Origin: Arenicola marina | Taxonomy: Eukaryota; Annelida; Polychaeta; Arenicolidae | NCBI GenBank assembly: GCA_964019135.1 | Contig: OZ025248.1 | Location: forward strand, 72,608,119 to 72,672,118 | Reading direction: 5' to 3' | Length of the DNA: 64,000 bases | Shown: positions 5,401 through 50,238 of the stretch, piece by piece | How the letters are laid out: each line of letters begins with the position of its first letter | How positions within the stretch are numbered: position 1 is the first letter of the stretch | Notes under the pieces: generated by a model | Seen by the model: only the letters and a program-made list of their open reading frames with translations | Told to the model about the DNA's origin: nothing | The model's database searches: none | Position numbers and translations under genes: made by a program

Positions 5401-5559
5401 TTGCAAGATTCTGCCTTGCCCATTCCGGACCTGGGCCCTCTTGGACCTATAGAAGGCCGATCCTATCGAATTAATCACCATCTGGATAAGTTTGCGCCAG
5501 ACAATAATCTTTTGGCCACCGTCCCGTTACTCCCAGCACAGTATTGTACACTCCATAAG
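5401..5559 (+). CDS. probable upstream exon of the kinase-like gene
   Basis: The acceptor ttctgtttgcag precedes 5401 and the donor ctccataag|gtatgg follows 5559. The 159-bp exon is open, phase 0 at both ends, and translates to 53 residues beginning LQDSALPIPDLGPLGP and ending PLLPAQYCTLHK. The next exon (5807) also starts in phase 0, so it can join. I recognise no domain: no glycine-rich loop and no VAIK-type lysine is visible. If it belongs to the gene it lies just N-terminal to the partial N-lobe encoded at 5807-5933. Exons further upstream were not found. Confidence 0.5.
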
Positions 5560-5806
5560 GTATGGTCCAACGTATCTTTGATTATACGTTTACTAGCTAA
5601 TTCCAGCCTAACTTCATACAGCCAGCTTAGTAGACATATAGCTATAAGCCGGTGGAAAATATGCACTTATCGCAAAGCGGTTATTAATACGTGCAATAAC
5701 GAAAAATGCCACACCCAAAAATACCCTGACTACCGTAAAATATAAAATATATCGTAAAATTCGTCATGCTTTAAGTCGTGATGATTTGTGTACATTTATG
5801 TCCTAG

Positions 5807-5933
5807 ATGAGGCGATGTCAACTGCAAATGCTGTTGAAGTTGAGAAACGCCAGCCATGATCACGTGGTCTTCCCGCTGTGGGTGGTCCAGCAACCGGCAG
5901 ACCTACGTCTGGCGTACCTCCTCACAGACATCG
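5807..5933 (+). CDS. kinase-like gene exon: N-lobe segment whose 3' end founds the 37-bp array
   Basis: The acceptor tttatgtcctag lies before 5807 and the donor is ACAGACATCG|GTAGGG. The 127-bp exon is open in phase 0 and ends in phase 1, exactly complementary to the exon at 16414. Its last 22 bases (5912-5933) plus the first 15 intronic bases are the repeat unit of the satellite that follows. Confidence 0.75.
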
Positions 5934-8900
5934 GTAGGGTGGTCTCTAGCGTACCGGCTCACAGACATCGGTAGGATGGTTTCTAGCGTACCGGCTCGCA
6001 GACATCGGTAGGGTGGTGTCTAGCGTACCGGCTCACAGACATCGGTAGGGTGGTCTCTAGCGTACCGGCTCACAGACATCGGTAGGGTGGTCTCTAGCGT
6101 ACCGGCTCACAGACATCGGTAGGGTGGTGTCTAGCGTACCGGCTCACAGACATCGGTAGGGTGGTGTCTAGCCTACCTCCTCACAGACATCGGTAGGGTG
6201 GTCTAGCGTACCGGCTCACAGACATCAGTAGGGTGGTCTCTAGCGTACCTCCTCACAGACATCGGTAGGGTGGTCTCTAGCGTACCGGCTCACAGACATC
6301 GGTAGGGTAGTCTCTAGCGTACCGGCTCACAGACATCGGTAGGGTGGTCTCTAGCGTACCCGCTCACAGACATCGGTAGGGTGGTGTCTAGCGTACCTCC
6401 TCACAGACATCGGTAGGGTGGTCTCTAGCGTACCTCCTCACAGACATCGGTAGGGTGGTCTCTAGCGTACCTCCTCACAGACATCGGTAGGGTGGTCTCT
6501 AGCGTACCGGCTCACAGACATCGGTAGGGTGGTCTCTAGCGTACCTCCTCACAGACATCGGTAGGGTGGTCTCTAGCGTACCTCCTCACAGACATCGGTA
6601 GGGTGGTCTCTAGCGTACCTCCTCACAGACATCGGTAGGGTGGTCTCTAGCGTACCGGCTCACAGACATCGGTAGGGTGGTCTCTAGCGTACCTCCTCAC
6701 AGACATCGGTAGGGTGGTCTCTAGCGTACCGGCTCACAGACATCGGTAGGGAGGTGTCTAGCGTACCTCCTCACAGACATCGGTAGGGTGGTCTCTAGCG
6801 TGCCTCCTCACAGACATCGGTAGGGTGGTCTCTAGCGTACCGGCTCAAAGACATCGGTAGGGAGGTGTCTAGCGTACCTCCTCACAGACATCGGTAGGGT
6901 GGTCTCTAGCGTACCGGCTCACAGACATCGGTAGGGTGGTCTCTAGCGTACCGGCTCACAGACATCGGTAGGGTGGTCTCTAGCGTACCTCCTCACAGAC
7001 ATCAGTAGGGTGGTCTCTAGCGTACCGGCTCACAGACATCGGTAGGGTGGTGTCTAGCGTACCTCCTCACAGACATCGGTAGGGTGGTGTCTAGCGTACC
7101 TCCTCACAGACATCGGTAGGGTGGTCTAGCGTACCGGCTCACAGACATCGGTAAGGTGGTCTCTAGCGTACCGGCTCACAGACATCGGTAGGGTGGTCTC
7201 TAGCGTACCTCCTCACAGACATCGGTAGGGTGGTCTCTAGCATACCTCCTCACAGACATCGGTAGGGTGGCTTCTAGCGTACCTCCTCACAGACATCGGT
7301 AAGGTGGTCTCTAGCGTACCGGCTCACAGACATCGGTAGGGTGGTCTCTAGCGTACCGGCTCACAGACATCAGTAGGGTGGTCTCTAGCGTACCTCCTCA
7401 CAGACATCGGTAGGGTGGTCTCTAGCGTACCTCCTCACAGACATCGGTAGGGTGGTCTCTAGCGTACCGGCTCACAGACATCGGTAGGGTGGTCTCTAGC
7501 GTACCGGCTCACAGACATCGGTAGGGTGGTCCCTAGCGTAGCGGCTCACAGACATCGGTAGGGTGGTCTCTAGCGTGCCGGCTCACAGACATCGGTAGGG
7601 TGGTCTCTAGCGTACCGGCTCACAGACATCGGTAGGGTGGTCCCTAGCGTACCGGCTCACAGACATCGGTAGGGTGGTCTCTAGCGTACCGGCTCACAGA
7701 CATCGGTAGGGTGGTCTCTAGCGTACCTCCTCACAGACATCGGTAGGGTGGTCTCTAGCGTACCGGCTCACAGACATCAGTAGGGTGGTCTCTAGCGTAC
7801 CTCCTCACAGACATCGGTAGGGTGGTCTCTAGCGTACCTCCTCACAGACATCGGTAGGGTGGTCTCTAGCGTACCGGCTCACAGACATCGGTAGGGTGGT
7901 CTCTAGCGTACCGGCTCACAGACATCGGTAGGGTGGTCCCTAGCGTAGCGGCTCACAGACATCGGTAGGGTGGTCTCTAGCGTGCCGGCTCACAGACATC
8001 GGTAGGGTGGTCTCTAGCGTACCGGCTCACAGACATCGGTAGGGTGGTCCCTAGCGTACCGGCTCACAGACATCGGTAGGGTGGTCTCTAGCGTACCGGC
8101 TCACAGACATCGGTAGGGTGGTGTCTAGCGTACCTCCTCACAGACATCGGTAGGGTGGTCTAGCGTACCGGCTCACAGACATCGGTAGGGTGGTCTCTAG
8201 CGTACCGGCTCACAGACATCGGTAGGGTGGTCTCTAGCGTACCGGCTCACAGACATCGGTAGGGTGGTGTCTAGCGTACCTCCTCACAGACATCGGTAGG
8301 GTGGTCTGGCGTACCTGCTCACAGCCATCGGTAGGGTGGTCTCTAGCGTACCGGCTCACAGACATCGGTAGGGTGGTGTCTAGCGTACCTCCTCACAGAC
8401 ATCGGTAGGGTGGTCTAGCGTACCGGCTCACAGACATCGGTAAGGTGGTCTCTAGCGTACCTCCTCACAGACATCGGTAGGGTGGTCTCTAGCGTACCGG
8501 CTCACAGACATCGGTAGGGTGGTGTCTAGCGTACCTCCTCACAGACATCGGTAGGGTGGTCTCTAGCGTACCGGCTCACAGACATCGGTAGGGTGGTCTC
8601 TAGCGTACCTCCTCACAGACATCGGTAGGGTGGTCTCTAGCGTACCGGCTCACAGACATCGGTAGGGTGCTGTCTAGCGTACCTCCTCACAGACATCGGT
8701 AGGGTGGTGTCTAGCGTACCTCCTCACAGACATCGGTAGGGTGGTCTCTAGCGTATCTCCTCACAGACATCGGTAGGGTGGTCTCTAGCGTACCTCCTCA
8801 CAGACATCGGTAGGGTGGTCTCTAGCGTACCGGCTCACAGACATCGGTAGGGAGGTGTCTAGCGTACCTCCTCACAGACATCGGTAGGGTGGTCTCTAGC

Positions 8901-11900
8901 GTGCCTCCTCACAGACATCAGTAGGGTGGTCTCTAGCGTACCGGCTCACAGACATCGGTAGGGTGGTCTCTAGCGTACCGGCTCACAGACATCGGTAATG
9001 TGGTCTCTAGCGTACCTCCTCACAGACATCAGTAGGGTGGTCTCTAGCGTACCGGCTCACAGACATCGGTAGGGTGGTCTCTAGCGTACCGGCTCACAGA
9101 CATCGGTAGGGTGGTCTCTAGCGTACCGGCTCACAGACATCGGTAGGGTGGTCTCTAGCGTACCTCCTCACAGACATCGGTAGGGTGGTGTCTAGCGTAC
9201 CTCCTCACAGACATCGGTAGGGTGGTGTCTAGCGTACCTCCTCACAGACATCGGTAGGGTGGTCTCTAGCGTACCGGCTCACAGACATCGGTAGGGTGGT
9301 GTCTAGCGTACCTCCTCACAGACATCAGTAGGGTGGTCTCTAGCGTACCGGCTCACATACATCGGTAGGGTGGCCTCTAGCGTACCGGCTCACAGACATC
9401 GGTAGGGTGGTCTAGCGTACCGGCTCACAGACATCGGTAGGGTGGTGTCTAGCGTACCTCCTCACAGACATCGGTAGGGTGGTCTCTAGCGTACCGGCTC
9501 ACAGACATCGGTAGGGTGGTGTCTAGCGTACCTCCTCACAGACATCAGTAGGGTGGTCTCTAGCGTACCGGCTCACATACATCGGTAGGGTGGCCTCTAG
9601 CGTACCGGCTCACAGACATCGGTAGGGTGGTGTCTAGCGTACCTCCTCACATACATCGGTAGGGTGGTCTCTAACGTACCGGCTCACAGACATCGGTATT
9701 GTAATCTCTAGCGTTCCGGCTCACAGACATCGGTAGGGTGGTCTCTAGCGTACCGGCTCACAGACATCGGTAGGGTGCTGTCTAGCGTACCTCCTCACAG
9801 ACATCGGTAGGGTGGTGTCTAGCGTACCTCCTCACAGACATCGGTAGGGTGGTCTCTAGCGTACCGGCTCACAGACATCGGTAGGGTAGTCTCTAGCGTT
9901 CCGGCTCACAGACATCGGTAGGGTGGTCTCTAGCGTACCGGCTCACAGACATCGGTAGGGTGCTGTCTAGCGTACCTCCTCACAGACATCGGTAGGGTGG
10001 TGTCTAGCGTACCTCCTCACAGACATCGGTAGGGTGGTCTCTAGCGTACCTCCTCACAGACATCGGTAGGGTGGTCTCTAGCGTACCTCCTCACAGACAT
10101 CGGTAGGGTGGTCTCTAGCGTGCCTCCTCACAGACATCGATAGGGAGGTGTCTAGCGTACCTCCTCACAGACATCGGTAGGGTGGTCTCTAGCGTGCCTC
10201 CTCACAGACATCGGTAGGGTGGTCTCTAGCGTACCGGCTCACAGACATCGGTAGGGAGGTGTCTAGCGTACCTCCTCACAGACATCGGTAGGGTGGTCTC
10301 TAGCGTACCGGCTCACAGACATCGGTAGGGTGGTCTCTAGCGTACCGGCTCACAGACATCGGTAGGGTGGTCTCTAGCGTACCTCCTCACAGACATCAGT
10401 AGGGTGGTCTCTAGCCTACCTCCTCACAGACATCAGTAGGGTGGTCTCTAGCGTACCGGCTCACAGACATCGGTAGGGTGGTCTCTAGCGTACCGGCTCA
10501 CAGACATCGGTAGGGTGGTCTCTAGCGTACCGGCTCACAGACATCGGTAGGGTGATCTCTAGCGTACCTCCTCACAGACATCGGTAGGGTGGTCTCTAGC
10601 GTACCGGCTCACAGACATCGGTAGGGTGGTGTCTAGCGTACCTCCTCACAGACATCGGTAGGGTGGTCTCTAGCGTACCGGCTCACAGACATCGGTAGGG
10701 TGGTCTCTAGCGTACCTCCTCACAGACATCGGTAGGGTGGTCTCTAGCGTACCGGCTCACAGACATCGGTAGGGTGCTGTCTAGCGTACCTCCTCACAGA
10801 CATCGGTAGGGTGGTGTCTAGCGTACCTCCTCACAGACATCGGTAGGGTGGTCTCTAGCGTATCTCCTCACAGACATCGGTAGAGTGGTCTCTAGCGTAC
10901 CTCCTCACAGACATCGGTAGGGTGGTCTCTAGCGTACCGGCTCACAGACATCGGTAGGGAGGTGTCTAGCGTACCTCCTCACAGACATCGGTAGGGTGGT
11001 CTCTAGCGTGCCTCCTCACAGACATCGGTAGGGTGGTCTCTAGCGTACCGGCTCACAGACATCGGTAGGGTGGTCTCTAGCGTACCGGCTCACAGACATC
11101 GGTAATGTGGTCTCTAGCGTACCTCCTCACAGACATCAGTAGGGTGGTCTCTAGCGTACCGGCTCACAGACATCGGTAGGGTGGTCTCTAGCGTACCGGC
11201 TCACAGACATCGGTAGGGTGGTCTCTAGCGTACCGGCTCACAGACATCGGTAGGGTGGTCTCTAGCGTACCGGCTCACAGACATCGGTAGGGTGGTCTCT
11301 AGCGTACCGGCTCACAGACATCGGTAGGGTGGTCTCTAGCGTACCGGCTCACAGACATCGGTAGGGTGCTGTCTAGCGTACCTCCTCACAGACATCGGTA
11401 GGGTGGTCTCTAGCGTACCGGCTCACAGACATCGGTAGGGTGGTCTCTAGCGTACCGGCTCACAGACATCGGTAGGGTGGTCTCTAGCGTACCGGCTCAC
11501 AGACATCGGTAGGGTGGTGTCTAGCGTACCTCCTCACAGACATCGGTAGGGTGGTCTCTAGCGTACCGGCTCACAGACATCGGTAGGGTGGTCTCTAGCG
11601 TGCCGGCTCACAGACATCGGTAGGGTGGTCTCTAGCGTACCGGCTCACAGACATCGGTAGGGTGGTCTCTAGCGTACCTCCTCACAGACATCGGTAGGGT
11701 GGTCTCTAGCGTACCTCCTCACAGACATCGGTAGGGTGGTCTCTAGCGTACCGGCTCACAGACATCGGTAGGGTAGTCTCTAGCGTTCCGGCTCACAGAC
11801 ATCGGTAGGGTGGTCTCTAGCGTACCGGCTCACAGACATCGGTAGGGTGCTGTCTAGCGTACCTCCTCACAGACATCGGTAGGGTGGTGTCTAGCGTACC

Positions 11901-14900
11901 TCCTCACAGACATCGGTAGGGTGGTCTCTAGCGTACCTCCTCACAGACATCGGTAGGGTGGTCTCTAGCGTACCTCCTCACAGACATCGGTAGGGTGGTC
12001 TCTAGCGTGCCTCCTCACAGACATCGATAGGGAGGTGTCTAGCGTACCTCCTCACAGACATCGGTAGGGTGGTCTCTAGCGTGCCTCCTCACAGACATCG
12101 GTAGGGTGGTCTCTAGCGTACCGGCTCACAGACATCGGTAGGGAGGTGTCTAGCGTACCTCCTCACAGACATCGGTAGGGTGGTCTCTAGCGTACCGGCT
12201 CACAGACATCGGTAGGGTGGTCTCTAGCGTACCTCCTCACAGACATCGGTAGGGTGGTCTCTAGCGTACCTCCTCACAGACATCAGTAGGGTGGCCTCTA
12301 GCATACCGTCTCACAGACATCGGTAGGGTGGTCTCTAGCGTACCTCCTCACAGACATCAGTAGGGTGGTCTCTAGCGTACCGGCTCACATACATCGGTAG
12401 GGTGGTGTCTAGCGTACCTCCTCACAGACATCGGTAGGGTGGTCTCTAGCGTACCTCCTCACAGACATCGGTAGGGTGGTCTCTAGCGTATCGGCTCACA
12501 GACATCGGTAATGTGGTCTCTAGCGTACCTCCTCACAGACATCGGTAGGGTGGTCTCTAGCGTACCTCCTCACAGACATCGGTAGGGTGGCCTCTAGCGT
12601 ACCGGCTCACAGACATCGGTAGGGGGGTCTCTAGCGTACCTCCTCATAGACATCGGTAGGGTGGTCTCTAGCGTACCTCCTCACAGACATCGGTAGGGTG
12701 GTCTGAGGCGTACCTCCTCACAGACATCGGTAGGGTGGTGTCTAGCGTACCTCCTCACAGACATCGGTAGGGTGGCCTCTAGCGTACCGGCTCACAGACA
12801 TCGGTAGGGTGGCCTCTAGCGTACCGGCTCACAGACATCGGTAGTGGGGTCTCTAGCGTACCTCCTCACAGACATCGGTAGGGTGGCCTCTAGCGTACCG
12901 GCTCACAGACATCGGTAGGGTGGCCTCTAGCGTACCGGCTCACAGACATCGGTAGGGGGGTCTCTAGCGTACCTCCTCATAGACATCGGTAGGGTGGTCT
13001 CTAGCGTACCTCCTCACAGACATCGGTAGGGTGGTCTGAGGCGTACCTCCTCACAGACATCGGTAGGGTGGTGTCTAGCGTACCTCCTCACAGACATCGG
13101 TAGGGTGGCCTCTAGCGTACCGGCTCACAGACATCGGTAGGGTGGCCTCTAGCATACCGGCTCACAGACATCGGTAGTGGGGTCTCTAGCGTACCTCCTC
13201 ACAGACATCGGTAGGGTGGCCTCTAGCGTACCGGCTCACAGACATCGGTAGGGTGGCCTCTAGCGTACCGGCTCACAGACATCGGTAGGGGGGTCTCTAG
13301 CGTACCTCCTCACAGACATCGGTAGGGTGGTCTCTAGCGTACCTCCTCACAGACATCGGTAGGGTGGTCTCTAGCGTACCTCCTCACAGACATCGGTAGG
13401 GTGGCCTCTAGCGTACCGGCTCACAGACATCGGTAGGGTGGTCTCTAGCGTACCGGCTCACAGACATCGGTAGGGGGGTCTCTAGCGTACCTCCTCACAG
13501 ACATCGGTAGGGTCGTCTCTAGCGTACCTCCTCACAGACATCGGTAGGGTGGCCTCTAGCGTACCTCCTCACAGACATCGGTAGGGTGGTCTCCAGCGTA
13601 CCTCCTCACAGACATCGGTAGGGTGGTCTCTAGCGTACCTCCTCACAGACATCGGTAGGGTGGTCTCTAGCGTACCTCCTCACAGACATCGGTAGGGTGG
13701 CCTCTAGCGTACCTCCTCACAGACATCGGTAGGGTGTCCTCTAGCGTACCTCCTCACAGACATCGGTAGGGTGGCCTCTAGCGTACCTCCTCACAGACAT
13801 CGGTAGGGTGTCCTCTAGCGTACCTCCTCACAGACATCGGTAGGGTGGCCTCTAGCGTACCTCCTCACAGACATCGGTAGGGTGGTCTCTAGCGTGCCTC
13901 CTCACAGACATCGGTAGGGTGGCCTCTAGCATACCTCCTCACAGACATCGGTAGGGTGGTCTCTAGCGTACCTCCTCACAGACATCGGTAGGGTGGCCTC
14001 TAGCATACCTCCTCACAGACATCGGTAGGGTGGTCTCTAGCGTACCTCCTCACAGACATCGGTAGGGTGGCCTCTAGCATACCTCCTCACAGACATCGGT
14101 AGGGTGGTCTCTAGCGTACCTCCTCACAGACATCGGTAGGGTGGCCTCTAGCATACCTCCTCACAGACATCGGTAGGGTGGTCTCTAGCGTGCCTCCTCA
14201 CAGACATCGGTAGGGTGGCCTCTAGCATACCTCCTCACAGACATCGGTAGGGTGGCCTCTAGCGTACCTCCTCACAGACATCGGTAGGGTGGTCTCTAGC
14301 GTACCGGCTCACAGACATCGGTAGGGTGGTCTCTAGCGTACCGGCTCACAGACATCGGTAGGGTGGTCTCTAGCGTACCTCCTCACAGACATCGGTAGGG
14401 TGGTCTCTGGCGTACCTCCTCACAGACATCGGTAGGGTGGTCTCTGGCGTACCTCCTCACAGACATCGGTAGGGTGGTCTCTAGCGTACCGGCTCACAGA
14501 CATCGGTAGGGTGGTCTCTAGCGTACCGGCTCACAGACATCGGTAGGGTGGTGTCTAGCGTACCGGCTCACAGACATCGGTAGGGTGGCCTCTAGCGTAC
14601 CGGCTCACAGACATCGGTAGGGTGGTCTCTGGCGTACCTCCTCACAGACATCGGTAGGGGGGTCTCTAGCGTACCGGCTCACAGACATCGGTAGGGTGGT
14701 CTCTAGCGTACCGGCTCACAGACATCGGTAGGGTGGTGTCTAGCGTTCCGGCTCACAGACATCGGTAGGGTGGTCTCTAGCGTACCGGCTCACAGACATC
14801 GGTAGGGTGGTCTCTAGCGTACCGGCTCACAGACATCAGTAGGGTGGTGTCTAGCGTACCTCCTCACAGACATCGGTAGGGTGGTCTCTAGCGTACCTCC

Positions 14901-17900
14901 TCACAGACATCGGTAGGGTGGTCTCTAGCGTACCTCCTCACAGACATCGGTAGGGTGGTCTCTAGCGTACCGGCTCACAGACATCGGTAGGGTGGTCTCT
15001 AGCGTACCGGCTCACAGACATCGGTAGGGTGGTCTCTAGCGTACCTCCTCACAGACATCGGTAGGGTGGTCTCTAGCGTACCTCCTCACAGACATCGGTA
15101 GGGTGGTCTCTAGCGTACCTCCTCACAGACATCGGTAGGGTGGTCTCTAGCGTACCTCCTCACAGACATCGGTAGGGTGGTCTCTAGCGTACCGGCTCAC
15201 AGACATCGGTAGGGTGGTCTCTGGCGTACCTCCTCACAGACATCGGTAGGGTGGTCTCTAGCGTACCTCCTCACAGACATCGGTAGGGTGGTCTCTAGCG
15301 TACCGGCTCACAGACATCGGTAGGGTGGTGTCTAGCGTAGCGGCTCACAGACATCGGTAGGGTGGTCTCTAGCGTACCGGCTCACAGACATCGGTAGGGT
15401 GGTCTCTAGCGTACCTCCTCACAGACATCGGTAGGGTGGTGTCTAGCGTACCTCCTCACAGACATCGGTAGGGTGGTCTCTAGCGTACCTCCTCACAGAC
15501 ATCGGTAGGGTGGTCTCTAGCGTACCTCCTCACAGACATCGGTAGGGTGGTCTCTAGCATACCTCCTCACAGACATCGGTAGGGTGGTCTCTAGTGTACC
15601 TCCTCACAGACATCGGTAGGGTGGTCTCTAGCGTACCTCCTCACAGACATCGGTAGGGTGGTCTCTAGCGTACCTCCTCACAGACATCGGTAGGGTGGTC
15701 TCTAGCGTACCGGCTCACAGACATCGGTAGGGTGGTCTCTAGCGTACCTCCTCACAGACATCGGTAGGGTGGCCTCTAGCGTACCGGCTCACAGACATCG
15801 GTAGGGTGGCCTCTAGCGTACCGGCTCACAGACATCGGTAGGGTGGTCTCTAGCGTACCGGCTCACAGACATCGGTAGGGTGGTCTCTAGCGTACCGGCT
15901 CACAGACATCGGTAGGGTGGCCCGTAGTCGAATCCATTTCGTTCACTTTACCAACTAATGAATAATAATATGTTTTCGTGGTGTTTATCGAAGAGTTTTA
16001 GTTGGAAGACAACCAACACAGAGGAAGACCAAGTAGTAGCAATATACTGCCCCCTTGTGATGGCTTGTTTTGTTGTTTCGCAAAGTTTACTGTCGTGTGG
16101 GATGTTTTCCCTTCTTCCAAAGAACTAATGGACTAATACCTGAAACGCTGTATTGCGATAAGCATATGGCACACCACAATAAATGGTTACAAATGGGAGA
16201 GAACATTTGTAAATATTTTTAGTTGTAGTTACTCTCAAAGCTTGCGATGTCCACATGTCTTAATGTAGATATATCTGTTATAATGTATGAGTAGTTTGTA
16301 TTCCGCAAATTTAGTGGCCGTAAACTCCATTTAACAACCGATTTAATAATTCATACAGACTTTTATATTTTCTATGTATTCTTCCGAGAGTGATTGCGCT
16401 GTGCTTTGTGCAGGATTGTCCCTGGCTTCGCGCATGCGCGAAGTGGCGCCCGCGGGATACAGCGCGTCGACTGTCTGGTCCCTGATGACGCAGATCATGG
16501 CGGCTGTGGACTTCCTCCACAGAAAGAACATCGTTTACTTGGCCTGGACAGGTTGGTGCCCATCAGGGACATCATGTCTTAAAACTTGCTTGCTTAAACT
16601 CAATTTTCTGTGAGTCTATGAGACATGAATGGTTCTGGAAGCAAAAGTTAATTCCCCAACATTATCTCTTTACTGTTAATATTGTTAATTTAGAAAAATA
16701 GACTCGCAATCGAGGTTGGAAGAGGTAACGGTACATTATTAGCCGAGAGAATTTGTGAATACTAGCTGTAGCCAAGCCGACATTATACTGTTTTAGAGGA
16801 TGTATTATGCTGTGTTATGTTGTCCTCGTTATTGTGACGTAGGTGCACTGTACATTGGCCAAGTCTTTTGGGATCCACCCACTTGTAATAACTTTATAAC
16901 GTTAATGTCTTGCACCGAAAGCGTACTCCAACAGACTTTGCTGTAGAATCTGTGCGTATTTCATGTATTTTAAATTATGGGCATAATGGTCTTGGAGACG
17001 GAGATAAATGACATTGTGAAGCCGTGTGCTTGAATCTGCACCCATATTTAACCGGGTAGAGGTTTCACACATGCACGTGTATTCCATAATACATATCGCT
17101 CATATCGGTGCCGTTTGCGGAATCTGGTGCAGCCATCATGGAGCAGCTGTAATGAGTGGATTGCACAATCGTTTTTGACAGATACAAAACACCGATGTAT
17201 CTGGCCGTTTATAGCGTTAAAATCTCATTTTTAGATGTATTTGGCCGTTCATAGCGTTAAAATCTCCATTTCAGATGTATTTGGCCGTTTATAGCGTTAA
17301 AATCTCCTTTTCAGCCAGCAGCATGTGTCTACATGATCCACACATGTTGGTGAAGTTGAGCAACTTTTCCTACGCGGTCACCTTGGAGGAGACAATCGAC
17401 GAGGAAGACGTTGAGGACACAGCCCGAATGCTGCCTCCTCACGTAGCGCCCCCTGAGGTGAGATTGGCTGTAGACTGGACATCACCACGCGACTAACTGG
17501 TAGGAGAAGCGCCCCCTGAGGTGAGATTTGCTGTAGACTGGACATCACCACGTGACTAACTGGTAGGAGAAGCGCCCCCTGAGGTGAGATTGGCTGTAGA
17601 CTGGGCATCACCACGTGACTAACTGGTAGGAGAAGCGCCCCCTGAGGTGAGATTGGCTGTAGACTGGGCATCACCACGTGACTAACTGGTAGGAGAAGCG
17701 CCCCCTGAGGTGAGATTGGCTGTAGACTGGGCATCACCACGTGACTAACTGGTAGGAGAAGCGCCCCCTGAGGTGAGATTGGCTGTAGACTGGGCATCAC
17801 CACGTGACTAACTGGTAGGAGAAGCGCCCACCTGAGGTGAGATTGGCTGTAGACTGGGCATCACCACGTGACTAACTGGTAGGAGAAGCGCCCCCTGAGG

Positions 17901-20900
17901 TGAGATTGGCTGTAGACTGGGCATCACCACGTGACTAACTGGTAGGAGAAGCGCCCCCTGAGGTGAGATTGGCTGTAGACTGGGCATCACCACGTGACTA
18001 ACTGGTAGGAGAAGCGCCCCCTGAGGTGAGATTGGCTGTAGACTGGGCATCACCACGTGACTAACTGGTAGGAGAAGCGCCCCCTGAGGTGAGATTGGCT
18101 GTAGACTGGACATCACCACGTGACTAACTGGTAGGAGTAGCGCCCCCTGAGGTGAGATTGGCTGTAGACTGGACATCACCACGTGACTAACTGGTAGGCG
18201 AAGCGCCCCCTGAGGTGAGATTGGCAGTAGACTGGGCATCACCACGTGACTAACTGGTAGGAGAAGCGCCCCCTGAGGTGAGATTGGCTGTAGACTGGGC
18301 ATCACCACGTGACTAACTGGTAGGAGAAGCGCCCCCTGAGGTGAGATTGGCTGTAGACTGGACATCGCCACGTGACTAACTCATAGGAAGAGCGCCCCCT
18401 GAGGTGAGATTGGTTATAAACTGGACATCACCCCGTGACTAACTGGTAGAAAAAGCGCCCCCTGAGGTGAGATTGGCTGTAGACTGGACATCACCACGTG
18501 ACTAACTGGTAGCAGAAGCGCCCCCTAGGGTGAGATTGGTTATAAACTGGGCATCACCCCGTGACTTAACTGGTAGGCAAAGCGCCCCCTGAGGTGAGAT
18601 TGGCTGTAGACTGGACATCACCACGTGACTAACTGGTAGGAGAAGCGCCCCCTAGGGTGAGATTGGTTATAAACTGGGCATCACCCCGTGACTTAACTGG
18701 TAGGCAAAGCGCCCCCTGAGGTGAGATTGGCTGTAGACTGGACATCACCACGTGACTAACTGGTAGGAGAAGCGCCCCCTAGGGTGAGATTGGTTATAAA
18801 CTGGGCATCACCCCGTGACTTAACTGGTAGGCAAAGCGCCCCCTGAGGTGAGATTGGCTGTAGACTGGACATCACCACGGTAGGAGAAGCTCCCCCTAGG
18901 GTGAGATTGGTTATAAACTGGGCATCACCCCGTGACTTAACTGGTAGAAAAAGCGCCCCCTGAGGTGAGATTGGCTGTAGACTGGACATCACCACGTGAC
19001 TAACTGGTAGGAGAACTTGCATACACGGGCAAGAGAGATAACTTTATATTTGACCATTTGGCGCGCGTTCAAACTAAGTTTGCAATCGGCATAGTTCCTA
19101 TTAGGTCCTTGACGAACAGAACGACGACTGTCGTAGGTTGTGACGGGGTATAATATCACACGCGGCCAACCACGGTGTCGCTATAAGTGTTGTATTATTC
19201 GTAAAGATGACGCTTAGCTTCATATGGTTCTTTAGGCGTCAGATGGCGTCAAAGATCTCTGATCTCAGGGTTTGCTTCAGCGCTGGATACGATTATGTCC
19301 AAGTGAAACATGTGTCTACTTCAAATGTTAGTTAAAACGAATCAATTACGCAACCCAGCGTCGACCACACACCATTTACCAAGAAATAACACGTGAGTGA
19401 TCTGTATCGGCCACGTGTCTGATTACAATAATGATAAATTCTTCTGTCACATACAGTGGCGGATTTTACGAACGCAGTTTAGCCGACTACGGAGTTTAGT
19501 CAGCTAAAGTTACCATGTAAACAAGTTACCATGTAAAGTTACCATGTAAATGATGGGCGATTTTAGCCGACTAAACCCCGCTAGCCGGCTAAGCTATGTT
19601 CTTGAAATAGACCCCGGTACACCGACACTCATCTAATGTGTGTGTCATGTGGACGTTGCAGTGCTACGATGGACAGGTGGTCGAGCTTTCCGATAGCTGG
19701 GGCCTAGCTGTCATTATGTACCAGTTGGCGACGGGTCGACGTGTGGACTATCGCTACCGCCACTACACTGAGGCGGTGGGTGTCGAGGTGAGTGCCATCC
19801 AGTATCCTGTCCATCGACCACGCAGGCCTGAGAACTTTTAATTCTTAAAGCAAAAATTATATATTTATCCCAGATTCGCCATGCTTCACTGTTGATTTTG
19901 GAATGAAAATATAACCCACGTGTTTTCTCGTTGTCCAACATCGAAAAGTTCAATCTTAAAAAAATCGTATTGTGACAGGTTTTACTTCCGTATGGCTTCT
20001 ATTTCGTATTTTATTTGCTTTGGCTTGTGTGTATGTAAGATCAGAGAAGTGTGTATGTATGTTTTTTTAGAAATGACCCTACAAGATGGCATCTTTTTTA
20101 TGGGAACATCAGAAAAGAAACTATGTTTACGTTATCAAAAAGTAAAATAAAACCGGTCCCTGATATTTGATGTTAGGACTGATGTCCTACGTGTTTTAGG
20201 CGAGGACGGAATAGGCTCCTTGTGTAAGGTTTGGCTGACGTACCTCGGTGCATCGATCATGTATTAATGTGCGTCCAAATAGTAAATACCGATACTTTTT
20301 CAGACACTAAACTAATCGTGGACCCTAGGTGGAGTGGCTGCGGTGTATAGCATTGTACTACTAATAAATGGAAAGGTCACTTGAGTTCATTTCCGAATTA
20401 TCAAGTTATCCTGGGTATTAAATGTTTATTCCCTATCTTACATTTATTCCCTATCGTACATTTATTCATATTTATAAATCTACTTCTTACCATTTTGTTT
20501 CCATTTTGTGAACTGTTGTGTTATTAATTATTTGACTGACTTCACGGATTTTTGGAAGATAACGATGTTGGAGTTACTTATCGATGCACGCGCACTTCAG
20601 TGCACCAAAGGTTAAGTAGATGGATGGATAGACTGAAGGCACCATCTTGATGTTTACATGTGGTTGTTGGTTACTAAACTGACTAACTTTGAGGCATGGT
20701 AACGAGACTAAGGAGGGGTAGCAACTCTTTACCATAACCAAACCATGTAGCCTGTGGTGCATTGGTGGAGGAAGTTTGGGCGATATTAAAGGCCACTGAA
20801 GTGGATAAACGTGCATATATATATATCTATATATCGTATTGTCCTCCCACTTTTTATTGACCTATGGCATGATTCACTCTCGTATCTTCGTGAACTGGGA

Positions 20901-24744: not shown

Positions 24745-24990
24745 AACAACCATATAGGGCCCCTGAGGGAGGGTAGCCATGTCGCGTGTCGATTTTAAAA
24801 AAAGGTCCATGTCGCGTGTCGATTTTAAGAAAAGGTCCATGTCGCGTGTCGATTTTAACAAAAGTTCCATGTCGCGTGTCGCTAAGTCTTATGTCGCATG
24901 TCGATTTTAAGGCAGCCCCAATGTCGCGTTGTCGATTTTAAAAGTCGCTGTGTCGCCGTGTCGAAAAAGCCCCTCTGGGGCCCTCCATAT
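24745..24990 (-). repeat. dispersed CGACA-rich repeat family, copy 2 with internal tandem units
   Basis: Four to six ~30-bp units of ATGTCGCGTGTCGATTTTAA (minus-strand form of the family) are followed by CAATGTCGCGTTGTCGATTT and GTCGAAAAAGCCCCTCTGGG. Orientation is opposite to the copy at 2.3 kb. Confidence 0.75.
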
Positions 24991-27523: not shown

Positions 27524-28890
27524 TCACCCGTTGTCTCCTTTGATCCTGGTTGCGCCCCTATCGGCGGCGGGCGTGGGCTCTGGCGGCGATGCCGCTGCCG
27601 CTGGGCCGCTCGGAAAGATCAAGAACCCGTAGAACGTGGCGTAATTATGGTACAAGGCGTTGTGCATGCCGTACTCATGGGGCAGTTCGATCCACACCCG
27701 ATCGCCCTCCAGCAGAGTCAAAATACCCACGTTGGACGCGGCGCCTGCGCACTCGGCCTGCGATCCCCATGGCTGTGCCTCTTCCGGACAGCAATAACAG
27801 CCGGAGTTGTCGAAGGCGGATAAGAGTCGCTGGCCATTGCGAACCAGGTGCAGCAGGATGTTCTGGCCGTGGTAACTGACCCCGCCAAACCCGACCATGT
27901 AAGTGCCGTTGACGGGCGAGGTGAATTCGCCGGTTGTGACGTCATATCCGTCTCCGATATTGGTGAGAATAATATCGAAGTGCAGTACGCGGTAGTCAGA
28001 GGTCTGAGGCAATTCGGTATCCATGGTGACGGAAAAGGCCACGTGGTCGCGTGATTTTTGTGTTGGCACCGGTACCAGTCTGACATGGCCAGCTTCGCCT
28101 TTCCGCCCTTTAAATCCGCGTCTTCCTGCGAAATAAAACTTTGTGTTCAGTCTCCTAATGGTACACTGGCCAATTTGTTGTATTAAATACACAGGGCTCG
28201 TTTTATTCTTGAAATTACTATTTTGATGGATATTATAGCTGATTTGCCTGTTATCAAGAACCTTGAGATTTTACGCCCACCCTACTGCAGCGGTCTGAGC
28301 GGAGGAACAGAACTCCACGTGGTGCATTGGAGCTTGGACCTTGGTCAGAACCCGGGTGTCAGAATGACATAATATTAAGGAGGAATGACCTGATCGATAT
28401 ACATTATATGATTATCTTCATCGTAACGTCAAACCTGTATTTATGATTTCTTATTTTTCGTTTTGGCTGCCGCTGATGACCATTGATAGGTTTCAGATAG
28501 AAAGCCATAATTGACGATTGTAGTTACGGGTGGGAACAATAACTCACCTTTCTGACCCTTGCTTCCTTGGTGTCCTTTGGGCCCCGCGGGTCCTTCAGAG
28601 CCCTCGACCCCTTGCACCCCCTGAATGCCCTGCACACCCTGCACCCCGCGACCCCCGGGGTGGCCGTCCTGTCCGGAGGGCCCCGCCGGACCCTGATAGC
28701 ACGAGCATCCGGAGCACGCTTTACAGGAGGGCCCTCTGCCGCCTCCCTTGCTGCTGCCCTTGGTCAACGGGGCGCCTCCCTTGCGGTCCTTCTTCAAGCC
28801 TTTCGCAGCATGCTCCGTGGCGGATACACTGAGCAACAAGAGGAGGGTCAGGACTGTTGTCTTGGTCACCAGTTTGAGCCCGGTCGGCAT
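27524..28890 (-). CDS. secreted collagen-C1q domain protein, two exons
   Basis: Join of 28890-28548 and 28125-27524 on the minus strand. The ATG at 28890 starts MPTGLKLVTKTTVLTLLLLL, a signal peptide. A basic linker and the cysteine cluster SCKACSGCSCY follow, then Gly-X-Y collagen repeats. The donor AAAG|GTGAGT (phase 1) joins the acceptor TTTCGCAG|GAAGAC, and Gly-X-Y continues across the junction (GQKGRRGFKGRKGEAG). Exon 2 encodes one globular C1q domain: AFSVTM start, LHFDIILTN, FTSPVNGTYMVGFGG, RVWIELP and the C-terminal FYGFLIFP. This is the architecture of C1q/C1qTNF-like lectins and predicts trimers of the globular head. An immune or matrix role is inferred from the family. An upstream exon is possible because CTCGCAG precedes the ATG. 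Confidence 0.9.
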
Positions 28891-28920
28891 GATGGTTATC
28901 ACACTGCGAGGAAACGTACG

Positions 28921-28932
28921 ATATAAATCGAC
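28921..28932 (-). promoter_or_regulatory. TATA-like sequence upstream of the C1q gene
   Basis: Minus-strand GATTTATATCGTAC lies about 35 bp before the ATG. That is too close for a normal 5' UTR unless transcription starts a few bases before the ATG, so it is only a candidate. Confidence 0.25.
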
Positions 28933-28999
28933 TTGTCGAGCGCGACTTTCCAATGAAGCTGCCCACGACTATAAGGCTGGTATGCCTTCAGCTGTCGAT

Positions 29000-33860: not shown

Positions 33861-34105
33861 AAACATCTATGGCGGACCATTCCAATATTTATGACAAATA
33901 TACATATATGGCAGACCATTCAACTATTTATTCCCGCCTTTTAGATTAATGGAAATGTTACACCGGCCGGTTTATCTTGCCACATTCCAAAATTGTCCAG
34001 TATCGAAGCGTGATTTTGCTCCCATAAAACAATGGCGGATGGGGATTATTACGATTATTTTATTTTATTTTATTATTTTTATAATATCATGCAAATGTAT
34101 AATAC

Positions 34106-35836
34106 AAGGTGTGATATCCCTTTTTTTTCCCAAAATATCAGGTTTAAAGTGCAATTTAGAGAAAACAGAAGCCATCTGGATTGGATCTAATGCAAGCAAC
34201 TGTCCCGGAACTTTAAAAGTCAAATGGTGTAAAACTCAGTGTTTCTCTACATTAGGAATAGTTTTCACTTTAGACGAATATGAGATGGCAACTTTAAATT
34301 TAGGCTCAAAGCTTGAGTCTCTCAAAAAGTGTCTTAACCTCTGGCAAATGCGTGAATTAACTCTAATAGGTCGAATCTTAGTATTGAAATCCCTGGCACT
34401 GTCGAAGCTAACATATATAGCAACGAACATGTATCTACCAACCCAAACAATAAATGAAATTCAGAGTGTAATAAATTTGTTCCTGTGGAAAAACTCAACA
34501 CCTAAAGTTAAATTACAAGTTATGGCTCAGCCAATAAATGAAGGAGGCTTGAAAGCTCCTATCTATATTAACCAAGTTAAATCACTCAGATTAAGTTTTA
34601 TTAAGAGAATTTGCAATGATGAAAAGAAAGCATGGAAGGACTGCGCACAGACTTTCTTTCCATATATACTAATGAATGATTTATTTAACACCAGATGCGC
34701 GGTTCCTGCCTCGTTTTTAAATGATTTACCAATGTTTTATAAAGAACTTGTTCTCTTCTGGGCTGAGTTAAAGTCAAAGAAGGCCCCTGTTACAAAAAGC
34801 GAAATTTTATCCGAGTCGCTATGGTTTAATCCGTTTATTAAAATAAATGGCAATACAGTGTTTTATGAGAATTGGTACAGCAAACGCGTCAAGACTATAC
34901 ATGACCTCATTGGCGGTGATAATTTGCTGCTCTCAGATGACCAGTTAAGGTTGAGATATGGAGTACATTTTCACCTTTTAGAATACTATGGCCTGAGGTC
35001 AGCTATACCCCGCAGTTGGAAGATAGCCCTCCAAGGTGGAGAAAGAATAGGCTCGATAAATCTGAATTGTGAAACAGAATACACATGTAGAAGTATTTAT
35101 TGGAAACTCACTCCGAAACCAATAACTATTATACAGCGCAATAAATGGATGGAAATGTTTAGTTCTTCAGAAAATGAATGGTCTAATTACTGTTTATTAC
35201 CTTTTAAAAATAGTTTTGAGACCAAATTACAGTCGTTTCAATTCTCTGTACTATATAGGTTTGTACCATATAAGAGCCGGCTGCATAAAATGGGATTGGT
35301 AGACAGCAACATCTGTGACTATTGCTCGGAAATCGACACCATAACACACAGATTTGTGCAATGGCCTGTGGTAAAACGTTTCTGGAATTGTTTTGTGCAC
35401 TGGTGGGAAAATATAATTAAGGACAGGATCGATCTGTCGGAAAAACGAATAATTCTAGGTGATGGGACGGACAATTATACATTAAATAACTGCTTGTTGC
35501 TTGGAAAACATTTTATTCATACACAGAAATGCAAGACCCAACCAATCAGCTTCCCTGGGTTTAAGGTAATCTTGCAGTACCATATTCTTATGGAGAAACA
35601 CATCCTACTAATGAGAGGGCAGGCAAATATATTTCAAGAAAGATGGGGTGTCTTTTTTCAGCCTCCTTCATCTGAGTCCTAGTTTAATTTAATTTATCAA
35701 GCTCAAGTAAATGGTGTATGTGTTATGCTATCGTCAACTGTGCAACGACGTTCTGTAACAAAACTGTATTGGAACAATATTGTATGACTATCATTTCAAC
35801 GAAAAAAAAAAAGAAAAAAAAAAGGTGTGATATCCC
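34106..35836 (+). mobile_element. 5'-truncated LINE insertion with 15-bp target-site duplication
   Basis: AAGGTGTGATATCCC occurs at 34106-34120 and again at 35822-35836, directly after an A-rich tail (35803-35821). The body between is a severely 5'-truncated non-LTR element. Truncation plus A-tail plus long target duplication indicates target-primed reverse transcription. Confidence 0.9.
34121..35682 (+). pseudogene. LINE ORF2 C-terminal part (RT thumb to zinc-binding tail)
   Basis: The frame is open to the stop at 35682. It starts inside the reverse transcriptase at SGLKCNLEKTEAIWIGS and continues with the thumb block WQMRELTLIGRILVLKSLAL then LSKLTYIATNMYLP, INLFLWKN, and GGLKAPIYINQVKSLRLSFI. 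The C-terminal CDYCSEIDTITHRF then VVKRFWNCF is the zf-RVT-type motif of L1/Tx1-like LINEs. The catalytic YADD, endonuclease and ORF1 are absent because of truncation. The open frame upstream of 34121 is host sequence, not part of the element. The tail is intact, suggesting a young insertion. Confidence 0.85.
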
Positions 35837-35925
35837 GAAAACATAGCAGTATATTTTAGCAGTCAGTGTAGGTACCTTGTGAATTCAAGCAAGTCGTGTA
35901 ACTAAGCAAGTCATAAATAAACAGT

Positions 35926-37813
35926 AGCCCTGGCTCTAAGATATCGGTAGGGGTGCAAATTCCCACAGGAGAAGTAGTATCCATGACTACTGAGATTCGG
36001 TACCACCCTCACCCTGCGATATATAGCGTACGGTAGCCCTGGCTCTAAGATATAGGTAGGGGGTGCAAATTCCCACAGGAGAAGCAGTATCCATGAGATT
36101 CGGTACCCCCCTCCCCCTGCGATATATAGCATACGGTAGCCCTGGCTCTAAGATATAGGTAGAGGGTGCAAATTCCCACAGGAGAAGCAGTATCCATGAG
36201 ATTTGGTACCCCCCCCCCGCGATATATAGCATACGGTAGCCCTCTCATTAAGATATCGGTAGGGGGTGCAAATTATCATAGGAGAAGCAGCATCCATGAG
36301 ATTTGGTACCCCCCTGCGATATATAGCATACGATAGCCCTCTCACTAAGATATCGGTAGGGGGTGCAAATTCTCACAGGAGAAGCAGTATCCATGAGATT
36401 CGGTACCCCCCTGCGATATATAGCATACGGTAGCCCTCTCACTAAGATATCGGTAGGGGGTGCAAATTCTCACAGGAGAAGCAGCATCCATGAGATTTGG
36501 TACCCTCCTGCGATATATAGCATACGGTAGCCCTGGCTCTAAGATATCGGTAGGGGTGCAAATTATCATAGGAGAAGCAGCATCCATGAGATTTGGTACC
36601 CTCCTGCGATATATAGCATACGGTAGCCCTCTCACTAAGATATCGGTAGGGGGTGCAAATTCTCACAGGAGAAGCAGTATCCATGAGATTCGGTACCCCC
36701 CCCCCTGCGATATATAGCATACGGTAGCCCTGGCTCTAAGATATCGGCAGGGGGTGCAAATTCTCACAGGAGAAGCAGTATCCATGAGATTTGGTACTCC
36801 CCCCCCCCCCTGCGATATATAGCATACGATAGCCCTGGCTCTAAGATATCGGTAGGGGGTGCAAATTCTCACAGGAGAAGCAGTATCCATGAGATTTGGT
36901 ACCCCCCTGCGATATGAAGCATACGGTAGCCCTCTCAATAAGATATCGGTAGGGGGTGCAAATTCTCACAGGAGAAGCAGTATCCATGAGATCTGGTACC
37001 CCCCTGCGATATATAGCATACGGTAGCCCTGGCTCCAAGATATCGGTAGGGGGTGCAAATTATCATAGGAGAAGCAGTATCCATGAGATTTGGTACTCCC
37101 CACCCCCCCCTGCGATATATAGCATACGATAGCCCTGGCTCTAAGATATCGGTAGGGGGTGCAAATTCTCACAGGAGAAGCAGTATCCATGAGATTTGGT
37201 ACCCCCCTGCGATATATAGCATACGGTAGCCCTGGCTCTAAGATATCGGTAGAGGGTGCAAATTCTCACAGGAGAAGCAGTATCCATGAGATTCGGTATC
37301 CCCCTGCGATATATAGCATACGATAGCCCTGGCTCTAAGATATCGGTAGGGGTGCAAATTCTCACAGGAGAAGCAGTATCCATGAGATTCGGTACCCCCC
37401 CCCCCTGCGATATATAGCATACGATAGCCCTGGCTCTAAGATATCGGTAGGGGGTGCAAATTATCATAGGAGAAGCAGTATCCATGAGATTCGGTACCCT
37501 CCTGCGAAATATAGCATACGGTAGCCCTGGCTCTAAGATATCGGTAGGGGGTGCAAATTATCATAGGAGAAGCAGTATCCATGAGATTCGGTACCCCCCT
37601 GCGATATATAGCATACGGTAGCCCTCTCACTAAGATATCGGTATGGGGTGCAAATTATCATAGGAGAAGCAGTATCCATGAGATTCGGTACCCCCCTGCG
37701 ATATATAGCATACTGTAGCCCTCTCACTAAGATATCGGTAGGGGGTGCAAATTCTCACAGGAGAAGCAGTATCCATGAGATTCAGTACCCCCCTGCGATA
37801 TATAGCATACGGT
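35926..37813. repeat. ~97-bp minisatellite, ~19 copies
   Basis: The unit contains GATATATAGCATACGGTAGC, CCT(GG/CT)CTCTAAGATATCGG, TAGGGGGTGCAAATTCTCAC and AGGAGAAGCAGTATCCATGA, then GATTCGGTACCCCCC of variable C length. Variants (TCTCACAGG/TATCATAGG; GGCTCTAAG/TCTCACTAAG) are shuffled between units. The overlapping minus-strand open frames (YRRGVPNLMDTASPV-type) are artefacts. Confidence 0.95.
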
Positions 37814-46071: not shown

Positions 46072-46926
46072 AAATCCGCTTGGTCGGGGCGTTTTACCAC
46101 CAGATTCTGCTCGGTCGGGGCGTTTTACCACCAGATTCTGCTTGGTCGGGGCGTTTTACCACCAGATTCTGCTTGGTCGGGGCGTTTTACCACCAGATTC
46201 TGCTCGGTCGGGGCGTTTTACCACCAGATTCTGCTTGGTCGGGGCGTTTTACCACCAGATTCTGCTCGGTCGGGGCGTTTTACCACCAGATTCTGCTCGG
46301 TCGGGGCGTTTTACCACCAGATTCTGCTTGGTCGGGGCGTTTTACCACCAGATTCTGCTCGGTCGGGGCGTTTTACCACCAGATTCTGCTCGGTCGGGGC
46401 GTTTTACCACCAGATTCTGCTTGGTCGGGGCGTTTTACCACCAGATTCTGCTTGGTCGGGGCGTTTTACCACCAGATTCTGCTCGGTCGGGGCGTTTTAC
46501 CACCAGATTCTGCTTGGTCGGGGCGTTTTACCACCAGATTCTGCTCGGTCGGGGCGTTTTACCACCAGATTCTGCTCGGTCGGGGCGTTTTACCACCAGA
46601 TTCTGCTTGGTCGGGGCGTTTTACCACCAGATTCTGCTCGGTCGGGGCGTTTTACCACCAGATTCTGCTTGGTCGGGGCGTTTTACCACCAGATTCTGCT
46701 TGGTCGGGGCGTTTTACCACCAGATTCTGCTTGGTCGGGGCGTTTTACCACCAGATTCTGCTCGGTCGGGGCGTTTTACCACCAGATTCTGCTTGGTCGG
46801 GGCGTTTTACCACCAGATTCTGCTCGGTCGGGGCGTTTTACCACCAGATTCTGCTTGGTCGGGGCGTTTTACCACCAGATTCTGCTCGGTCGGGGCGTTT
46901 TACCACCAGATTCTGCTCGGTCGGGG
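46072..46926. repeat. 31-bp minisatellite, ~27 copies
   Basis: The unit is GGGGCGTTTTACCACCAGAT then TCTGCTYGGTC; the only common variant is CTCGGT/CTTGGT. Because 31 is one more than a multiple of three and the unit lacks stops on the plus strand, all three plus frames are open and read the same 31-residue peptide. I regard this as non-coding. Confidence 0.95.
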
Positions 46927-48668: not shown

Positions 48669-49092
48669 CAGGGCGTTGGCAGGTGACAATCACAGTTAAT
48701 TTGGAGGATGGCGGAACATCAGACCATATGACCGATGACAAGCAACGACCAGACGTTGACAGGATGATGATGGGATCAACAATCAAGTGCCAGCCAGACG
48801 TCATCATTGACATCAACAGAAACGAAGCCGTTCAGCTGTAGGATGGATCGCCCGACCCAACATCAGATCAACCGACAGATGAAGATAAGGCTGAATCTCG
48901 TGAGCGTCGCTTACATATTCATACTGCCCCTGGTTTAATGTTACTGTTATGTCACGTTGTTGATGACATCGCCTGTTTTATGTTGTCGCATTGTTGTTGA
49001 CGTGACCTTTACTTGATGTTAGCCTGTTTCCTGTCACCTTTGTTGTTGTCGTCGGTTTAGACAAGGTACCTACTTATTGTAAGTGTCTAGGC

Positions 49093-50223
49093 ATGTCTAG
49101 ACATGGGGATGACGTGGGTGTGGAGGAGGAAGAGGTTGTTGCTCCTGGGGCAGGAGAGGATGGAGTTGCAGGCGAAGGTGCGGCTGTGCCAGAGGCTGAT
49201 GACCAAGGCAGGGAGGATTTGCTACGACAGCTGGCCGACCTACGGAGGCAGATGGGAGCGATGCATGTTCCACGACCCTTCCCGGAACAGTTTACCAGGG
49301 TGGTGTACGCGCCCAAGAAGGTTTCTAAGTTCAGCGGGGACCCTGCACGCCTGGAAGATTGGGAGATCGAGATCCACGCAAGCCTCGAAGCCCAGGGTTT
49401 GGAGGATTTGATCGCAGCTGACTTCATGATGTGCCACCTGGAAGGAGCTGCGAAGCGAGAGGTTCGGTATGCGGATCCAGAAGAAAGGTCTCACCCGGAG
49501 GCCATTTTCAAGCTGCTGGAAGAGGCCTTTGGGGAGAAACGGACCGCTGCGCAGCTGCTGGATGCGTTTTACGCCAGACGGCAAGAGAGTCGGGAGACAC
49601 TCCAACAGTTCTCACACGCGCTCATGGAGCTTCTGGATAAAGCCCTTCAGCAAGACGACACTTGCCTCCCCAACCGCGACAGGGCTTTACGGGACACCTT
49701 CGCTGAGAAGGTGCGGGATGGCTCTCTCCGTCGTGAGCTGAAGCGACGGATCCGTGACCATCCAAGTACCACATTCAGGAGCCTCAGGAGGGAGGCAGAG
49801 AGATGGGCGGAGGATGACCTCGGAGCTTCCGGATCGAAGGGTCAAGGGAAGATTGGTCAAGCTACGGTGAACGTGGTACAGCCGAGCGAGCTCGAATCAC
49901 AGACCAGTAAACTGACCTCTATGATGGAGTGCCTGCAGCGACAACAGTTGCAGCTGAATGAGCAGCACAAGCTGATCCTAGAGCTCACAGAGAGAAAGCG
50001 ACCGGACGGAAGGGAGCGACGCTGCTTCTTTTGTGACAAGCCTGGCCATTTTCGCAGAGATTGCTACCAGTGGAAGGCGCAGCGGAACAAGGAAACCACT
50101 GGACCGCCGGGTATTGGGTCACGCGAAGCTGGACAGTCAAGACCGCCCCCAGAGAATCCCAGTTCTGATGCACGCCGGTTCAGTGCCAATCGACCCCCAA
50201 ACGAGATTCACCCATTGCAGTGA
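49093..50223 (+). CDS. gag: Gag of the Ty3/Gypsy element
   Basis: 376 residues. The acidic N terminus is followed by a capsid-like region (RKVSKF-type motif near VSKFSGDP, then WEIEIHASLEAQG, FEEAFGEKRTA-type helices, RRQESRETLQQFSHALMEL). A nucleocapsid zinc knuckle CFFCDKPGHFRRDC lies at residues 311-324 (CX2CX4HX4C). The ATG at 49093 is the first in the frame after the leader. The stop (50221-50223) lies inside a hairpin just after a slippery heptamer, so Pol is probably made as a Gag-Pol fusion. Confidence 0.93.
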   Translation: MSRHGDDVGVEEEEVVAPGAGEDGVAGEGAAVPEADDQGREDLLRQLADLRRQMGAMHVPRPFPEQFTRVVYAPKKVSKFSGDPARLEDWEIEIHASLEAQGLEDLIAADFMMCHLEGAAKREVRYADPEERSHPEAIFKLLEEAFGEKRTAAQLLDAFYARRQESRETLQQFSHALMELLDKALQQDDTCLPNRDRALRDTFAEKVRDGSLRRELKRRIRDHPSTTFRSLRREAERWAEDDLGASGSKGQGKIGQATVNVVQPSELESQTSKLTSMMECLQRQQLQLNEQHKLILELTERKRPDGRERRCFFCDKPGHFRRDCYQWKAQRNKETTGPPGIGSREAGQSRPPPENPSSDARRFSANRPPNEIHPLQ

Positions 50224-50238
50224 GCCATGAAGTGGGTG
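50196..50238 (+). promoter_or_regulatory. -1 ribosomal frameshift signal between gag and pol
   Basis: The heptamer C-CCA-AAC (50196-50202) is in the Gag frame in exactly the X-XXY-YYZ register. After a 6-base spacer, CACCCATT (50209-50216) pairs with AGTGGGTG (50231-50238), an 8-bp stem with one G-T pair and a 14-base loop that holds the gag stop. Slipping back one base enters the pol frame, which is open from 50169. Pol has no nearby ATG in its frame, as expected. Confidence 0.8.

Follow-up and report, generated by a model that had tools for sequence, protein, structure and literature searches.

The gene described here, from the polychaete Arenicola marina, looks like a pseudokinase gene when judged by its deduced protein, and it probably holds a passive minisatellite that was seeded at an exon-intron boundary, was enlarged by tandem and block duplication and has its first splice donor picked by position. 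The array is real and very large, its features are of a known kind, and it is not the only minisatellite of such a size in the genome. The gene resides in a 64-kb stretch of DNA, referred to as the window, at position 72608119 of contig OZ025248.1 (C1:72608119) in an assembly of 867 Mb and 762 contigs. All coordinates are those of the window, and all features lie on its forward strand.

Results

The array (5908..15922) comprises 271 units of 37 bp, each with 26 exon-derived and 11 intron-derived bases and the donor TCG|GTAGGG. Tandem Repeats Finder reported it at 5908-15920 with a period of 37, 270.9 copies and 93% matches, and an independent anchor scan located 271 donor positions, the first at 5934 and the last at 15912. 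Both results bear out the minisatellite of about 10 kb and about 270 copies announced in an earlier note on this DNA. Neighbouring donors are 37 bases apart in 264 of 270 cases and 35 bases apart in the other six; no further value occurs, and thus no unit is absent. The founding unit (5908-5944) runs through the end of exon 5807-5933 and the donor, as that note had proposed for the unit, while the proposed division into 22 coding and 15 intron bases has to be corrected: copy 1 consists of the final 26 bases of the exon and 11 bases of the intron. It differs from the array consensus by a single mismatch, CTG for CTA, which is synonymous (both leucine). At this one site, 258 of 265 units carry the consensus base and six other units carry that of the exon. 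GT is kept at the donor in 269 of the 271 units, and the complete 9-mer TCG|GTAGGG is present at 244 of the 271 donor positions, the true donor counted, so that near-equal donors indeed follow by the hundred before the next acceptor. The note was also right about where the 16414 acceptor and the donors of the two exons lie.

Two main unit types differ at two neighbouring bases and account for 142 (TC) and 122 (GG) of the 265 full-length units, all of which are made up of the letters A, C, G and T only. Exon 5807-5933 belongs to the TC type; the GG type would turn a leucine into an arginine. Altogether 58 distinct types are found, and their order is non-trivial. One block of 14 units recurs 51 units off and another of nine units recurs 11 units off; such recurrences are consistent with growth through tandem and block duplication. 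A 16-base core around the splice sites, spanning the acceptor-like CTCACAG, ACATCG and GTA, is poor in variant types (7 of 39; 0.00235 with positions permuted and the poorest 16-base stretch taken). This is a hint only, because the types are non-independent, the length of the stretch was picked post hoc and mutation is possibly uneven. Note that this scarcity is unexpected for a purely passive array, unless mutation is uneven. The match of the 37-bp unit to a donor is not above that of shuffled units, 72% of which do at least as well. The claim made for the array therefore depends on the exon.

The gene model comprises five exons, beginning at 5401, 5807, 16414, 17315 and 19662, which have AG/GT edges and consistent phases and can be joined without a stop. 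E1 (5401..5559), the weakest member of the model, has consensus AG and GT, an open frame and phase 0 at both ends. E2 (5807..5933) agrees with E3 in frame and phase, and its final 26 bases are copy 1 of the array. E3 (16414..16551), which has a single match in the assembly and hence no second haplotype there, reaches the catalytic loop region, E4 (17315..17457) covers the activation segment as far as an APE-like motif, and E5 (19662..19787; taken to 19790 in the open-frame test of donor choices) contributes SDSWGLAVIMYQLATG and the alpha-F region. When compared with Pfam, the protein from E2 to E5 matched PK_Tyr_Ser-Thr (8.7e-10, 38.8 bits) and Pkinase (3.8e-09, 36.8 bits). Scores fell to 33.2 and 33.5 bits without E2, which hence contributes 3.3 bits (Pkinase) and 5.6 bits (PK_Tyr_Ser-Thr), and all nine versions with a shuffled E2 scored lower than the intact protein, at most 34.3 and 34.8 bits. 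Neither E2 alone nor E1 by itself matched any Pfam family, and adding E1 made the kinase scores dip slightly, to 38.1 and 35.8 bits as against 38.8 and 36.8. All 60 structure matches listed for the gene are kinases; nine of these 60 align across the E2/E3 junction, and the best ones begin downstream of it. In the structure alignments printed, residues other than Asp occupy the position of the catalytic Asp and that of the Asp of DFG, which is why the product looks like a pseudokinase. Overall, the evidence for the exons comes from homology and is fair to good. In the 64-kb window, neither Rfam families (gathering threshold) nor tRNAs were detected, and C1q and collagen were the only Pfam domains above the cut-off in ten other open reading frames.

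The true donor (5934..5939) is the sole one of the 271 that keeps the frame: upon splicing to 16414, the frame stays open through E5 for donor 1 alone, just as the earlier note had maintained. Donor 2 joined to 16414 results in a frame shift with a stop further on, and the frame-shifted product has no Pfam match. For the remaining 269 donors the stop lies within the retained array sequence. The in-frame TAG that had been predicted past the first donor was found at 5972..5974, just inside donor 2, and is reached if donors 1 and 2 are both skipped. Local strength does not single out the true donor. Its predicted pairing with U1, calculated with an 11-base U1 end, amounts to -8.4 kcal/mol; the value is the same at 244 of the 271 positions (true donor included), and three array donors are predicted to pair slightly more strongly (-8.7 kcal/mol). 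Among the 3,188 other GT in the window, 1.4% are predicted to pair at least equally well, and predictions for the other donors of the gene range from -6.5 (E1) to -11.9 (E5). As the true donor has no local edge over its copies, it should be position that decides.

Two further arrays, absent from the earlier note, are present at E4 in the same gene: a triplicated acceptor and a 63-bp array. The former is a 40-bp array of three copies (17194..17314) that adjoins E4 without entering it. Its copies end in the acceptor-like TTTTTAG, ATTTCAG and TTTTCAG, the last of which is the E4 acceptor. The latter (17445..19015, 25 copies, donor GAG|GTGAGA) begins in the final 13 bases of E4, and its unit spans the exon-intron boundary with 13 exon and 50 intron bases, the exon being called by homology. 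The donor GT is kept in 25 of 25 copies, and donor 1 alone keeps the frame (1/25). When donors and acceptors were combined (269 x 3 x 25 = 20,175), two combinations proved open, namely the normal one and the one in which donor 2 is used together with the first of the acceptor copies. Testing exon edges for self-similarity gave the maximal 30 of 30 for both array donors (37-bp and 63-bp), and 16-19 of 30 at the other eight of ten edges, inside the 15-23 obtained for 150 random sites. The E4 acceptor, with a score of 18, is one of these eight; its copies came from Tandem Repeats Finder, not from the self-similarity test.

The genomic background was sampled in twenty evenly spaced 10-kb stretches (200 kb) of a single contig, that of the window. 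Arrays with a period of 10 or more take up 31.5% of the sampled bases, and those with at least 2.8 copies 30.0% (83 arrays, median 246 bases). One of the twenty stretches, L019, contains an array 9 kb or more in length, in which repeats of a 29-bp unit, detected as rows with periods of 58 and 87, occupy 9,088 bases from the first base on; counting by shortest period gives 6,586 for its longest row. With some 30% tandem repeat and one array above 9 kb in such a sample, a length of 10 kb is unexceptional in this genome. After collapsing of arrays, the chance of a base lying in a founding unit is 1.8%, and about 2% of exon edges are expected to do so. In the present gene, two of ten edges are spanned (P = 0.0135, post hoc), or three of ten if the abutting acceptor array is counted (P = 0.0007, post hoc). 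Donor-like motifs were not enriched in a set of 73 arrays from L002-L022 and the window, into which the 63-bp array entered as its 53-bp row: 14 arrays score at least 5 of 7, where 14.5 are expected, and the donor score of the 37-bp unit is unremarkable among them.

Discussion

The observations are probably best accounted for by the following sequence of events. The junction at the end of E2 would have been duplicated in tandem once, by replication slippage or a similar process, and the array would then have been enlarged through more tandem and block duplication, while the exon copy of the unit stayed fixed, presumably because it is translated. The transcript would join the first donor to 16414. 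This donor is probably favoured by its position, since it is transcribed first and lies closest to the acceptor of E2 at 5806, as exon definition would have it, and the remaining donors may simply be carried along. A like origin may apply to the triplicated E4 acceptor and to the 63-bp array.

That junctions acted as seeds at all may be a coincidence in a repeat-rich genome, where founding units sometimes cover exon ends and junctions are nothing special. We give this slightly less than an even chance. Tandem repeats make up roughly 30% of the 200 kb sampled, and with founding units covering 1.8% of collapsed bases a great number of exon edges should be hit genome-wide; donor-like motifs occur in the 73 arrays at chance level. 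The two spanned edges out of ten, or three with the abutting one, are more than such a background predicts, with the reservation that they were noticed post hoc. Coincidence concerns how the array arose and nothing else, and does not conflict with the passive, position-governed array that we favour. A different matter is whether E2 is an exon. If it were not real, or if the gene were dead, the array would be an ordinary intronic or intergenic minisatellite. The lack of a family match for E2 alone and the replacement of both Asp residues would suit this explanation, which we consider improbable given that phase and frame are kept at four junctions, that none of nine shuffles reaches the scores to which E2 adds its share, and that some of the listed structure matches run across the E2/E3 junction. 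Slightly less probable still is an artefactual copy number. Copy numbers in such arrays depend on reads and assembler, and for one lancelet locus the counts differ between two versions (PMC3902484); on the other side, 58 unit types in non-trivial order and strict register are hard to obtain by misassembly, and the 265 full-length units hold unambiguous bases only.

Rather than being a passenger, the array may act on splicing, its donors drawing U1 or competing with the true donor so that array length sets the amount of productive kinase mRNA. Retention of GT in nearly all units, the identity of most donors with the true one, the small share of other GT in the window with equal predicted U1 pairing and the stop that ends each splice from an inner donor to 16414 would be in line with such a role. 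We nevertheless regard it as unlikely, since motifs persist without selection in young, homogenised arrays and published arrays of this type are reported to leave the mRNA undisturbed. Splicing within the array itself is very improbable. Each unit might be divided into an intron of 31 bases and an in-frame micro-exon of six, ACATCG (Asp-Ile), or might alternatively serve as a donor that sends the transcript into decay. The AG of CTCACAG and the donor GT are both kept in 265 of 271 units, and the scarcity of variant types in the 16-base core would also suit this reading. Introns of 31 bases are below the usual length of animal introns. Were the array splice-active, its length would tune kinase output or add a run of Asp-Ile.

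The locus constitutes a natural test of 5' splice-site choice by the spliceosome among identical candidates: 244 donors agree in all nine bases and differ chiefly in position. If the first donor is used nearly always, exon definition and the order of transcription suffice against about 270 competitors over 10 kb. The array also shows the range over which boundary-seeded minisatellites can grow in a gene, which is relevant to models of how introns lengthen and how they are gained.

The precedent in amphioxus to which the earlier note had pointed does exist. PMC3087553 applies the term 'mirages' to tandem repeats that straddle exon-intron boundaries of amphioxus genes, namely Adh3 and globins; the units measure 10-72 and 150-160 bp. 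The globins concerned are BflGb6 and BflGb9, two globin haplotypes carry 6 and 3 units, the Adh3 mirage (Canestro 2002, as cited) is described as somatically unstable, and the data suggest that splicing is undisturbed for both Adh3 and globins (PMC3087553). PMC3902484 reports normal mRNA splicing for a TnC mirage and suggests it for the lancelet PGBD5 gene, whose two arrays count 2 or 7 and 3 or 6 copies, depending on the sequence version, their first copies adjoining 5' splice sites.

A link between the present array and these mirages may be inferred. The likeness extends to a unit that crosses the exon-intron boundary (26 exon and 11 intron bases here, with the exon called by homology), to splice signals kept in the copies (GT in 269/271 and 25/25) and to the involvement of both 5' and 3' boundaries; with PGBD5, the gene shares two arrays whose first copies lie at 5' splice sites. 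The copy numbers are different, 271 and 25 as compared with 3 and 6 in the globins and 2-7 in PGBD5. Since these printed copy numbers for globins and PGBD5 are 2-7, the scale appears new, and an array of this size was not found among the titles and abstract openings listed in searches of open-licence literature. The scale stressed in the earlier note is less remarkable for this genome, where one of twenty sampled stretches has an array exceeding 9 kb. Under the Rogers model, as cited in PMC3087553, introns are gained when sequence around AG/GT proto-splice sites is duplicated. The locus resembles this in its tandem splice-junction copies, which are potential new exons or introns, and departs from it in showing no new exon and in losing the frame whenever an inner donor is spliced to 16414.

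Further arrays and open reading frames in the window

An array at 35924-37813 (97-bp unit, 19 copies) has the strings ATCGGTAGGG and TCACAG in common with the 37-bp unit that spans the exon end and donor of the pseudokinase gene, and no exon was identified near it in the window. The array at 46078-46926 (31-bp unit, 27 copies) is open in all three forward frames. On the minus strand, Pfam recognises a collagen repeat and a C1q domain in open reading frames at 27527-28968, which probably constitute a single gene. Judged by eye, long reading frames resemble a Gypsy-type gag-pol at 49006-54419 and a LINE-type ORF at 33895-35682.

Tandem repeats elsewhere on the contig

Minisatellites account for ~30% of the sequence sampled from the same contig, C1 (twenty 10-kb stretches, L003-L022), and a 29-bp unit occupies 9,088 bases of L019. 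Since a 30-bp tandem unit occurs in near-identical form at two distant places, 24777-24881 in the window and L004:4144-4308, it is perhaps part of a dispersed element. The unit of the array at L009:8278-10000 (38 bp, 45 copies) contains both donor-like ACG|GTGAGT and acceptor-like GCTGACAG. It could be another boundary array, i.e., a minisatellite whose founding unit covers an exon-intron boundary, as in the amphioxus 'mirages'.
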